Origin: a virus
Length of the DNA: 24,782 nucleotides
Direction: 5' to 3' (one strand)
Virus record (IMG/VR): IMGVR_UViG_3300030389_001531
Coordinates: 1-24,782 of that record
Below are positions 19,434 to 24,661 of this stretch, in pieces (positions within the stretch are counted from its first letter, which is position 1; every line of letters starts with the position of its first letter). A model generated the notes under the pieces. The model was given only the letters and a program-made list of their open reading frames with translations. It did not search any database and was not told where the DNA came from. A program made the position numbers and the translations under genes.

Positions 19434-19582
19434 GCGCACAACTAGTCACTCCGCGCGTGGCGCGGAGTGGCTTGTTTGTTGTGTGCGCTGCAACCCGCTG
19501 CCCGCTCCACTCCGTGTTGCGGGTTGCTCCCTGCCCTGTCGCGGTGCATTCCCTCGCTTATCGGCGGGTAGTCCCGTCACAG
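19434..19582 (+). promoter_or_regulatory. Structured 5' leader of the first plus-strand gene: consecutive hairpins
   Basis: Hairpin 1: CACTCCGCGC (19447-19456) and GCGCGGAGTG (19460-19469) pair perfectly around a three-base loop, extended by an outer stem GCGCACAAC (19434-19442) with GTTGTGTGCGC (19478-19488, two-base bulge). Hairpin 2: GCAACCCGC (19490-19498) and GCGGGTTGC (19519-19527), perfect 9 bp. A third small one, CGGG-TAGT-CCCG, lies close to 19564-19576, just before the AAGGAGG of the next gene. The series could be a regulatory leader, a structured RNA or a DNA element. It matches no riboswitch I recognise. Confidence 0.6.
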
Positions 19583-20692: not shown

Positions 20693-20825
20693 AGTTGTTT
20701 CAATCGCACATGCAATCAAAGATGCTGATCCAACTTTCGATGAAAACAAATTCATCGACAGACAAGTTCAAGCATTTGAAGACTATCAAGCAATGATCAG
20801 TGGCAAAGAAGGAGCAGACATATGA
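20598..20825 (+). CDS. Small unknown protein before ArdC, GTG start
   Basis: 75 residues starting at GTG 20598, with GGAG seven bases upstream: MSVFQKKTVTVTGSTLELIHKML, then HPSEVVSIAHAIKDADPTFDENKF and an acidic end. No family recognised. Its stop overlaps the ArdC start as ATGA, so the pair is coupled. Part of it overlaps the zinc-finger gene; the overlap region codes for sensible sequence in this frame and a low-complexity tail in the other. Confidence 0.65.
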   Translation: MSVFQKKTVTVTGSTLELIHKMLTPTITHPSEVVSIAHAIKDADPTFDENKFIDRQVQAFEDYQAMISGKEGADI

Positions 20826-21664
20826 GCAAGTTTGATGACGTAACACGGCAGATCAAAGCGCAGCTTAAAGCTGGCACTCGCCCTTGGATCAAGCCTTGGA
20901 ACGGTGGAGGCATGCCAATGCCTCTACGCTTCAACGGCGAAATGTATCAAGGTATCAATGTTATTCTGCTTTGGATGCAAGGACGAACCGCACCCACATG
21001 GATGACATACAGACAAGCGCAAGAGATTGGCGGTCAAGTTCGCAAAGGAGAGCGCGGTACATCAGTATGTTATTCAGCACCAGTAACAACTAAACTGCCT
21101 AGTGGGGCAGAAGAAACTTACAGATGTTATAGATGGTATACAGTCTTCAATGCAGATCAGATCGATGGGTTGCCAGACAAATACCAACCGCCTCTTGTGC
21201 AGGATTACATCAACACAGATCCAAAAGACACAGTAGCGGATGATCTAGTATCAGGCACAAAGGCAGATGTTCGTAATGGTGCATCAAAAGCATACTTCAA
21301 TCCAACACATGATTACATCAACATGCCCAAGTTCGAAGACTTCAGATCTGCTCTGGATTACTACAGCACATTGTTCCATGAACTTGTTCACTGGACAGGA
21401 CACAAGTCTCGCCTCGAACGAAACTTCAGTCGCAACAAAACCGACTATGCCATCGAAGAGTTAGTTGCTGAGATGGGATCGGCGTTTTTGATGGCGCAGC
21501 TTGGCCTTGAGGCAAAGGTTCGAGAGGACCATGCAAGCTACATTGAGCATTGGCTCAAGGCTCTCGACAATGACAGCAAGTTTATATTCAGTGCAGCATC
21601 AGCAGCATCGAAAGCAGTCAACTATATTTGGGAAGCGCAAACAGCAAAGAAGGAAGCAGCATAA
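20822..21664 (+). CDS. ArdC-like antirestriction protein (ssDNA-binding domain plus zincin peptidase)
   Basis: 280 residues. N-terminal ArdC_N-type domain (about 1-125): LKAGTRPWIKPWNGG, RFNGEMYQGINVILLW, TWMTYRQAQEIGGQVRKGERGTSV and YRWYTVFNADQIDGLP, all diagnostic. C-terminal zincin-like metallopeptidase (about 150-280): HELVH at 186-190 followed by WTGHKSRL, and EELVAEMGSAF at 212-222 supplying the third zinc ligand. ArdC proteins protect incoming DNA from type I or type II restriction and bind single-stranded DNA; they are mostly known from conjugative plasmids and some phages. Placement early in the plus arm fits expression soon after entry. All key residues are present. Coupled by ATGA to the gene before and by TAATG to the gene after. 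Confidence 0.93.
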   Translation: MSKFDDVTRQIKAQLKAGTRPWIKPWNGGGMPMPLRFNGEMYQGINVILLWMQGRTAPTWMTYRQAQEIGGQVRKGERGTSVCYSAPVTTKLPSGAEETYRCYRWYTVFNADQIDGLPDKYQPPLVQDYINTDPKDTVADDLVSGTKADVRNGASKAYFNPTHDYINMPKFEDFRSALDYYSTLFHELVHWTGHKSRLERNFSRNKTDYAIEELVAEMGSAFLMAQLGLEAKVREDHASYIEHWLKALDNDSKFIFSAASAASKAVNYIWEAQTAKKEAA

Positions 21665-22394: not shown

Positions 22395-22595
22395 ATGATT
22401 AGTTACATACATCAATTACAAGCTGCCGCAGATAAAGCAGATGTGTCGTTATTGAAAGCATTTAAGGAATCTGGCACACCAACCAGTACCTTCTATCGAG
22501 CAATCAACGGCACAGATCTGCACCTATCTACTGCCAAAAAGGTTGAGGATGCGATCAAAGTTTACGCATTACAAAAAACCGCAACCAATCTCTGA
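22395..22595 (+). CDS. Small helix-turn-helix regulator, possibly from leaderless mRNA
   Basis: 66 residues. SLLKAFKESGTPTSTFYRAINGTDLHLSTAKKVEDAI (about residues 18-54) has the look of a lambda Cro/CI-type helix-turn-helix: a turn at Gly-x-Pro, the STFYRAI recognition-like helix, and a following helix. There is no ribosome site before ATG 22395, and the preceding ATG at 22377 lies within the promoter spacer, so if the promoter at 22360-22388 is used the transcript begins about at the start codon. Lambda cI from its maintenance promoter is also leaderless. The dyad in its promoter would allow autoregulation. Could be a repressor or Cro analogue. Confidence 0.7.
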   Translation: MISYIHQLQAAADKADVSLLKAFKESGTPTSTFYRAINGTDLHLSTAKKVEDAIKVYALQKTATNL

Positions 22596-22803
22596 CAACT
22601 GGTCTGATGTTGTCACGGGTTTAATATCTCTACGGCAAGAGCAAGGTATAAGCCAAGAGGTATTGGCTGACAGGATAGGCTGTGCAAGTTCTCTTGTACA
22701 TAAATGGGAACAATTTAAACGAGTGCCATCAAACTTCTTGTTAATTTGCTGGCTGGATGCATTAGATGCGAAAGTCGAAATCAAAACAAGACAAGGTAGG
22801 TAA
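22549..22803 (+). CDS. XRE-family helix-turn-helix regulator
   Basis: 84 residues. LISLRQEQGISQEVLADRIGCASSLVHKWEQFKRVPSNFLL (about 25-65) is a standard XRE/HTH_3 domain: ISQEVLADRIG is the first helix pair, SSLVHKWE the recognition helix. There is no C-terminal sensor or cleavage domain. ATG 22549 is preceded by AAGG with a 6-base gap that lies within the 3' end of the previous regulator; overlap 47 bases. Two adjacent small HTH genes on the same strand could work as a repressor and anti-repressor pair, or form heteromers; that is inference. Confidence 0.82.
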   Translation: MRSKFTHYKKPQPISDNWSDVVTGLISLRQEQGISQEVLADRIGCASSLVHKWEQFKRVPSNFLLICWLDALDAKVEIKTRQGR

Positions 22804-23326: not shown

Positions 23327-23650
23327 ATGAACGAAGATCTATTTGAAATCCCAGCATATAAATTAGTTCGCCGCAATGATCCATCGACAAGCTATGAAGC
23401 TGCTGAGTCGATTGATCCTACAAAGATGCAACAAATTGTGTTGGATGCAGTCAAGGCTATTGGGCCATGTATACATGATGAAGTGTGGAAGTATGTACAA
23501 ATCATTCATCCAAACATTACATCAAATTCAAGTGTAAGTAGTAGGTTCAATGAACTTGAAAAGAAAGGATTGATAGAGCTTACAGGTGAAAAACGAAAAG
23601 GCAGAAGCAATCGCAAACAACGCGAATGGAGAGCTATATGTTCACACTAA
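23327..23650 (+). CDS. Winged-helix DNA-binding protein preceding replication genes
   Basis: 107 residues. NDPSTSYEAAESIDPTKMQQIVLDAVKAIGPCIHDEVWKYVQII, then SNSSVSSRFNELEKKGLIELTGEKRKGRSNRKQREWRA, is a winged-helix pattern: an N-terminal helix, HDEVW helix, SSVSSRFNELEKKG recognition helix, and a basic wing. Small proteins of this kind are common in phage replication modules. AGAGGAG lies six bases before the ATG. Probably binds DNA as a replication accessory or local regulator; the exact role is unknown. Ends 13 bases inside the O-like gene. Confidence 0.8.
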   Translation: MNEDLFEIPAYKLVRRNDPSTSYEAAESIDPTKMQQIVLDAVKAIGPCIHDEVWKYVQIIHPNITSNSSVSSRFNELEKKGLIELTGEKRKGRSNRKQREWRAICSH

Positions 23651-24276
23651 TGGCTGATGCTATGCGTTTGCCTATACAAGATCCATTGGCAAAATGGCTT
23701 CTTGTTACACTGTGTGATTACGCCAATGACAAAGGTGAATGTTGGCCTAGCACTATCACTCTTGCTGAGCGTACTGGTATGCATCGAGCATCTGTTGCAA
23801 GAAAGCTGAATGATCTTGAACAAGCTGGGTACATACATCGAACGCAAAACGCTTTCAAAAGCAATATCTATCGTGTCGCACTGAGCGACATAGCTGTCGC
23901 ACACAGCGACAGTGGTGTTGCAGAGAGCGACAGTAACCTATCAATAACCAATAAACAAAGAAAGAAGAGGTGTCAGATTCCAGATGGTTGGACTCCTTCA
24001 ACAGAGTTGATTCAATCTATTGATGCCATCAGACTAGAACAGAAAAAATTGGAGCTAAACCATGACCATGAAGCAGCTATCTTCCGTGACCACCACAAAT
24101 CTAAAGGCAATACATTCATCGACATCGACGCCGCCTACAGAACTTGGTGTCGTAGATCTTACGGCAACAGACAAACAACAAGCAGTAGCACAGTTGCTCA
24201 AGGTGGACGATCCAGCAGAGGTAACTCGCAAAGTGACAGATTCAGTGCTTACCTTAGTGCCATCAATGGAAGCTAG
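23638..24276 (+). CDS. Lambda O-like replication initiator containing the candidate origin
   Basis: 212 residues. N-terminal winged helix (about 1-75): DPLAKWLLVTLCDYANDKGECWPST, then LAERTGMHRASVARKLNDLEQAGYI, an HTH_36/O-type pattern. Residues 80-100 are three seven-residue repeats (VALSDIA, VAHSDSG, VAESDSN) dictated by DNA iterons. The C-terminal part contains FRDHHKSKGNTFIDIDAAYRTWCRR, the segment that is conserved in phage replication proteins of the O type and may contact the helicase loader, and a low-complexity tail. In lambda the iterons lie likewise in the middle of O. Start chosen at 23638 by GGAG upstream; 23626 and 23650 are alternatives. Its 3' end overlaps the next gene for 215 bases. 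Confidence 0.85.
   Translation: MFTLMADAMRLPIQDPLAKWLLVTLCDYANDKGECWPSTITLAERTGMHRASVARKLNDLEQAGYIHRTQNAFKSNIYRVALSDIAVAHSDSGVAESDSNLSITNKQRKKRCQIPDGWTPSTELIQSIDAIRLEQKKLELNHDHEAAIFRDHHKSKGNTFIDIDAAYRTWCRRSYGNRQTTSSSTVAQGGRSSRGNSQSDRFSAYLSAINGS
23874..23970 (+). other. Candidate replication origin: three palindromic iterons plus A-rich tract
   Basis: Iteron 1 TGTCGCACTGAGCGACA at 23874-23890, iteron 2 TGTCGCACACAGCGACA at 23895-23911, iteron 3 TGTTGCAGAGAGCGACA at 23916-23932. Each has TGTCGC / GCGACA arms around five bases, and the spacing is exactly 21 bp, two helical turns. No fourth copy is seen on either side. An A-rich, G-poor stretch (about 23938-23966) follows directly. Three initiator dimers on one face of the helix next to an unwinding region is the lambda origin architecture. 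Confidence 0.8.
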
Positions 24277-24661
24277 GCATAGCAAAGACTTTACATTGTT
24301 AGGTTACAAAGTTGGTAAGTATGAAGATAAAAATATTTGCCAAGCAATCAGGAACGTAAATCGCAGTTTAGCTGGCATGCTTCCCAAAGATATTGAAAAG
24401 TGTATTGCAACGATCTTACCGTTGCTGACGCTTCCCAAAGATCTTGACGCCACAATGCTAGCAACAAAGGGTCGAACCCTTGCAGCAGAGCTTGCAAAGT
24501 ACCCTGCCGACATTGTTATGCAAGCATTCGAGGAAATCAAAAAGCGTTCTACGTTTTATCCCAGCTTTGCAGAGTTTTACAAACATATCGAACCGCGCTA
24601 CTTGCCAAGAAAATATCTTTTAGACGCACTGCAAAAGTGCATTGCAAAAAAGAGTATTTAG
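24062..24661 (+). CDS. Probable helicase loader or lambda P-like replication protein
   Basis: 199 residues, following the O-like gene as lambda P follows O. The C-terminal two thirds are helical: NICQAIRNVNRSLAGMLPKDIEKCIA, KGRTLAAELAKYPADIVMQAFEEIKKRSTFYPSFAEFYKHI. The segment A-F-E-x-x-x-(K/R)-(R)-(S)-x-F-(Y/F)-P-x-(F/L)-A-E is common near the C-terminus of phage P-like and replication proteins. There is no Walker motif, so it is not a DnaC-type ATPase. Start ATG 24062 is supported by GGAG seven bases upstream, at the price of a 215-base overlap; ATG 24266 would avoid overlap but has no ribosome site. The N-terminal 60 residues are Ser/Thr-rich. Function is inferred from position and pattern. 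Confidence 0.72.
   Translation: MTMKQLSSVTTTNLKAIHSSTSTPPTELGVVDLTATDKQQAVAQLLKVDDPAEVTRKVTDSVLTLVPSMEARHSKDFTLLGYKVGKYEDKNICQAIRNVNRSLAGMLPKDIEKCIATILPLLTLPKDLDATMLATKGRTLAAELAKYPADIVMQAFEEIKKRSTFYPSFAEFYKHIEPRYLPRKYLLDALQKCIAKKSI

Follow-up and report, generated by a model that had tools for sequence, protein, structure and literature searches.

In phage lambda, the iterons bound by the O protein lie midway through gene O, next to an AT-rich tract (PMC7466680, PMC3349717). In phage SPP1, gp38 binds oriL within gene 38, and the helicase is loaded by gp39 (PMC6316719). A further set of described proteins are the HTH_36 initiators, termed O-like or primosomal protein I, of SfV, RAH1, S107, Psychrobacter Y8A, Vibrio D77 and Thermus Lalka27a, which are winged-helix proteins of the same broad kind as the initiator discussed here. 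Several of them have tandem dyads at 21–24 bp in the linker. Their arms vary by family, their identity to our protein is mostly 25–35%, and the records that we fetched carry no dyad annotation.

The DNA that we analysed, called the window below, is a whole virus record of 24,782 bp (positions 1 to 24,782 of IMGVR_UViG_3300030389_001531). By terminase (64%), its closest cultured relative is Pelagibacter phage EXVC031P Hodr, and its structural genes (for tail proteins, an internal virion protein and a head–tail adaptor) resemble those of podoviruses. A search of the window DNA against annotated phages gave no match. A scan of genome contigs with the initiator family also gave no matches, and hence no link to a host or prophage. 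In addition, GC skew in the window tracks gene orientation, and with this confounding it is uninformative on origin position; a promoter scan of the window gave fewer matches than shuffled sequence. Pelagibacter is an abundant ocean bacterium, and mapped origins are, to our knowledge, rare among marine phages, Pelagibacter-phage relatives included.

Elsewhere in the window, 20822-21664 encodes an ArdC-like antirestriction protein with a zincin metallopeptidase domain, and a strong terminator-like hairpin of 13 pairs lies at 19444-19472, near the switch of gene strand from minus to plus. The locus tags of the Hodr record (L189) read EXVC032PBaldr, probably a naming slip in the public record.

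Three tandem dyads lie within the initiator gene of the window. This array is highly likely to be a tailed-phage replication origin built like ori-lambda, at which the initiator of the same gene would bind the dyads, open an AT-rich stretch and load helicase. The features concerned are as follows.

23638..24276, plus strand: O-like replication initiator, 212 aa (PHROG replication-initiation families, Pfam HTH_36, AlphaFold2 model); a longer form of the ORF begins at 23626
23782..23823, plus strand: recognition helix, initiator residues 49-62, HRASVARKLNDLEQ (model helix 50-63, residue–base table)
23874..23890, no strand: iteron 1, TGTCGCACTGAGCGACA, TGTCGC-ACTGA-GCGACA, read directly
23895..23911, no strand: iteron 2, TGTCGCACACAGCGACA, TGTCGC-ACACA-GCGACA, read directly
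23916..23932, no strand: iteron 3, TGTTGCAGAGAGCGACA, TGTTGC-AGAGA-GCGACA, read directly
23933..23970, no strand: AT-rich stretch directly after the array, candidate unwinding element, 73% AT over 30 bp
24062..24661, plus strand: P-like gene, 199 aa, probable helicase loader, overlapping the initiator gene (genomic pairing, structural matches)

The dyad array and the initiator that contains it

Each dyad in the window is 17 bp long, with 6-bp arms around a 5-bp centre. The first-pass annotation had described three palindromes of this length at exact 21-bp spacing, the third left arm having T in place of one C, and direct reading at 23874, 23895 and 23916 bears out both points. In the nearest relative (L002, 94% amino acid identity), the third arm is a perfect TGTCGC through a synonymous GTT/GTC change. 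Searching for TGTCGC-N5-GCGACA with at most two mismatches revealed no further site in the whole 24.8-kb window. Scored as sets of three dyads, the window reaches at best 17 of 18 pairs, against a maximum of 14 in 30 Markov-1 simulated windows. The array makes up codons 79–99 of the 212-aa initiator. It had also been placed between the DNA-binding and C-terminal parts of the protein, and the predicted structure, with a disordered linker there, agrees. Between the window and L002, 2 of 81 codons around the array were changed versus 21 of 131 elsewhere, with boundaries chosen afterwards; the longest unchanged run in this conservation profile was not significant (p 0.14).

The A-rich tract that had been reported beside the array is present and is among the 2% most AT-rich 30-bp stretches of the initiator gene, but it is modest against the whole window, where about 17% of 50-bp stretches match the AT content of the 50 bp following the array. 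Across 28 representative genes, the stretch after the array has a mean of 71% AT versus 56% for whole genes (random placement, p < 0.0002). The stretch in the window is short, and it is weaker than that of lambda (73% versus 78%).

The initiator is composed of a winged helix (HTH_36, residues 1–80), a disordered linker (81–110) and a helical DnaT-like C-terminal domain (112–182). In the AlphaFold2 model (m40e74acf70fa) the winged helix is confident, and linker residues 84–105, which overlap the iteron codons, have pLDDT below 50. The protein matches replication-initiation families PHROG 1032, 270, 391 and 345 at E values of 1e-24 to 1e-13 (1e-24 for PHROG 1032). HTH_36 scores 59 bits in the window protein, with a cut-off of 25, and is found in 34 of 34 family members; on these profile matches, the window protein belongs to the HTH_36 O-like initiators. 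A fold search with the initiator returned mostly generic winged-helix regulators. DnaT (PF17948) is matched at E <= 0.01 by 5 of 34 family members; the window protein alone gives no match, and gp031 of Hodr scores 26.8 with a cut-off of 25. Residues 84–179 of DnaT bind ssDNA (PMC4129139).

Membership of the lambda O family was ruled out. PF04492 (Phage_rep_O), to which lambda O itself scores 123 bits, is absent from the Pfam list of the window initiator and from the best 25 families listed for the 34 family members, and hhalign of the initiator family against lambda O gave a probability of 0.4%.

With ori-lambda the window shares tandem imperfect dyads (18–19 bp with a 6-5-6 core in lambda) placed centrally in the initiator gene, where the linker that joins the DNA-binding part to the C-terminal part is encoded; an AT-rich tract follows at once, and a putative loader gene lies directly downstream. 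The differences are in arm sequence, in the number and spacing of iterons (three at a strict 21 bp versus four at 20–24 bp), in the initiator, which is HTH_36 plus DnaT-like and not Phage_rep_O, and in a partner without sequence similarity to lambda P. The description of the locus as lambda-style is apt for architecture and probable mechanism (tandem dyads in the initiator gene, AT-rich stretch) and fails for family membership, where PF04492 gives no match. The remark that the iteron is unlike lambda's is correct for the letters, but the 6-5-6 geometry is that of lambda's annotated iterons (TCCCTC-AAAAC-GAGGGA). SPP1 oriL (gp38, gp39, gp40) is also similar in its position within the initiator gene and its AT-rich element, and the model of the window's partner protein may resemble the gp39 loader. 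However, the repeats of SPP1 are direct and it has an additional origin, oriR, and no helicase gene was seen in the replication module of the window.

Unannotated linker dyads with other arms were observed in RAH1, EBPR podovirus 1, Psychrobacter Y8A, Vibrio D77, S107, SfV and PhiR55_1 (L004, L006, L190, L193, L194, L195, L200). In Thermus phage Lalka27a (L197:1078-2550), the O-like ORF is annotated only from 1618, and its unannotated upstream part includes a region resembling a winged helix, along with about ten dyads of GTGCAC, most of them at 21-bp spacing.

The dyads are very probably the landing sites of the encoded initiator; that it binds them, in what stoichiometry of dimers, that the strands open and helicase is loaded, and that the origin is active are all inferred. 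The winged helix would bind the 17-bp dyads within the initiator gene, presumably as one dimer per dyad. Since the 21-bp period is two helical turns, all dimers would lie on one face of the DNA, and the aligned dimers could build an O-some-like complex that strains and opens the adjoining AT-rich stretch. The DnaT-like C-terminal domain would then bind the exposed single strand as well as the P-like helicase loader, and this loader, encoded directly downstream, would recruit the host DnaB helicase.

Binding to the dyads would also be expected if they were operators at which the initiator represses or adjusts the transcription that runs through its gene, with the origin elsewhere. Most winged helices of the MarR/IclR type belong to regulators, the best PDB sequence and structure matches of the N-terminal domain are mostly transcription factors, and all of the binding-site evidence from the residue–base table fits operators equally well. 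However, the sites are about 240 bp into the coding region, downstream of any promoter preceding the gene, and an AT-rich stretch adjoins them. The best scores of the initiator are to replication-initiation families, and its family has a DnaT-like domain coupled to a helicase-loader-like gene. Hence we consider operators improbable and prefer the origin.

Conservation of the dyads among relatives

Two scans with the initiator family gave 160 loci and 88 distinct genes, the window included; many of the relative records are fragments. Two or three dyads occur at the same location in the disordered linker in nearly all of these 88 genes, so that sequence comparison alone points to a candidate origin in nearly all of them. 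Of 37 steps between iterons, 33 are 21 bp long. The dyads are confined to the initiator gene in 10 larger relative records, except for one stray single dyad, and a few relatives have weak dyads (L076, L157, L170, L187).

Iteron registers were assigned by complementarity, partly by hand, and the key randomisation test re-optimised them each time. In the 28 representatives, 294 of 336 arm pairs of two dyads were complementary, against 207.8 ± 5.2 (maximum 223) after synonymous codon randomisation and 195 in control stretches from the same genes. With fixed registers, which had been chosen by complementarity, the count was 333 of 390 against 188 ± 8 in the synonymous null. Arm complementarity is far above what the encoded peptide forces. 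Moreover, of 65 iterons, 32 have T-A and 28 have C-G at pair 4/14, and at pair 5/13 42 have G-C and 14 have T-A; changes in the arms hit both sides of the dyad at once.

These counts bear on the possibility that the repeat is a selected heptapeptide whose codons are palindromic by chance. The first-pass annotation had pointed to a heptapeptide repeat, and in the window this stands: the usual spacing of 21 bp is seven codons, and the peptide looks repetitive (VALSDIA/VAHSDSG/VAESDSN). But complementarity is far above the synonymous null, the linker is predicted to be disordered, and the peptide is not conserved in relatives, which have different peptides, read dyads in a further codon phase and include a step of 22 bp. 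In one clade (L030/L031/L033), iterons 1 and 2 share one codon phase and iteron 3 has another, with a step of 22 bp; the peptide is LSQSET at iterons 1–2 (L030/L033) and VSQCDT at iteron 3. Two codon phases within one clade mean that the DNA is conserved and the heptapeptide is a by-product. The pattern named beforehand as speaking against an origin, dyads destroyed by synonymous changes under an intact heptapeptide, was absent; instead, dyads are kept while peptide and codon phase change. Selection on the heptapeptide is thus exceedingly unlikely to explain the repeat.

Each dyad could also fold into a stem of 6 bp and a loop of 5 nt, as mRNA hairpins in translation or attenuation would. We give this reading next to no credence, because the non-Watson–Crick pairs, 8 G-T versus 12 A-C, have no excess of the G-U pairs that an RNA stem would tolerate, and because the arm bases follow the DNA-recognition helix. 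Both the heptapeptide-repeat and the RNA-hairpin readings were rejected on the synonymous null, the codon phases and the pair counts.

Exact scans for two tandem dyads in 2.9 million viral contigs gave 9 and 15 matches, all within HTH-bearing ORFs, nearly all of which are initiator-like. Of these matches, L010, L014 and L028 are outside the family of the window, and their match to a replication-initiation family is clear for L028, weak for L014 and absent for L010. In these three (L010:2530, L014:900, L028:2486), TGTCGC or TGTTGC arrays lie in HTH ORFs, by convergence or very distant kinship.

The recognition helix and the arm bases

If the origin is bound by its own initiator, the arms may be expected to vary with the winged helix, and a comparison of this kind had been proposed in the first-pass annotation. 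In the 88 distinct family genes the outcome is positive, with arm bases 4 and 5 following two residues at the start of the recognition helix. The motif there is M-x1-x2-x3-[ST]-[VI]-x4-[RK]-K-L; in the window, H49 (x1) tracks arm base 5 and A54 (x4) tracks arm base 4. Ala at x4 occurs with C at base 4 in 178 of 182 half-sites and Thr at x4 with T in 260 of 260, the rule having been derived and counted on one and the same dataset. His or Asn at x1 goes with G at base 5, and Ser or Gly at x1 followed by Arg or Lys goes with T; the exception is proteins with Ser-Val at x1x2, which pair with mixed G/T half-sites at base 5. In a tree of the whole protein, with the x residues and the linker masked, there are two supported independent switches for x4/base 4 and two for x1x2/base 5, all in the expected direction, and 2–3 independent switches are too few for significance of the residue–base association.

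This covariation also bears on recognition of the dyads by some other DNA-binding protein of phage or host, for example the winged-helix protein of 23327-23650 or the HTH protein of 22543-22803. Several small HTH proteins are in fact encoded just upstream of the initiator. However, the arm bases track the recognition helix of the initiator itself, and L019 is without dyads despite a relative of the 23327-23650 protein (recognised by eye). Recognition by another protein is thus very unlikely, and the initiator remains our candidate for binding the dyads.

The new element is the family-wide covariation of the iteron with the recognition helix. PLE/ICP1 is a related precedent, in which initiator and iteron specificity diverged together under selection (PMC8263062). 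In a broader proposal, the family would be a natural record of origin-specificity change: x1 and x4 would set two half-site bases, gene and origin would re-specify each other within one DNA segment, and the winged helix with the iterons, and the C-terminal domain with the loader, would be two moving cassettes; in our judgement this proposal has an even chance of being right. The family gives a testable two-position recognition rule, and with initiator and target in one DNA it offers a clean case for how origin specificity shifts without losing replication.

The P-like gene and exchange of domains

All 78 genes that combine the usual C-terminal domain with an intact winged helix have the P-like gene, and it is absent from about 2.8 kb of downstream sequence checked in 9 of 9 distinct genes that keep winged helix and dyads with an unrelated C-terminal domain; one further gene (L149) is truncated by the end of its contig. 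The P-like gene segregates with the C-terminal domain of the initiator.

Lambda P family membership of the P-like protein was ruled out, in view of the lack of sequence similarity: the window protein has no Pfam match, including Phage_lambda_P (PF06992), and hhalign against lambda P gave a probability of 0.3%. The two best VIA-align matches of its model were lambda P (9oa1; Z 7.5, 79 residues, 3.5 Å) and SPP1 gp39 (1no1; Z 6.4), both with Z < 8 on a scale where unrelated AAA domains reach 6, and Foldseek gave a probability of 0.93 for SPP1 gp39. Structural match values of such size can be chance, and the models suggest a resemblance to lambda P and SPP1 gp39 in fold only.

Domain exchanges within the family separate the dyads from the partner gene. 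In L019/L020, an Hjc-like nuclease is fused to the initiator C-terminal domain (L019:2568-3215), without a winged helix, and the P-like gene is kept. Hodr is like the window in its terminase, in the homologous C-terminal domain of its initiator (L189:15431-15958) and in a short P-like gene, recognised by eye; it differs in an HTH_3 domain, which replaces the winged helix and is fused to this C-terminal domain. Tandem dyads were sought in L019/L020 and Hodr, and none were found. Presumably, Hodr and phages of the L019 type replicate without a dyad array. Loss of the winged helix goes together with loss of the dyads, and exchange of the C-terminal domain leaves them in place. In L069-L072 and L090-L101, the winged helix and dyads are kept, the replacement C-terminal domain has no Pfam match and the P-like gene is missing, an arrangement that suggests a different helicase-recruitment route.
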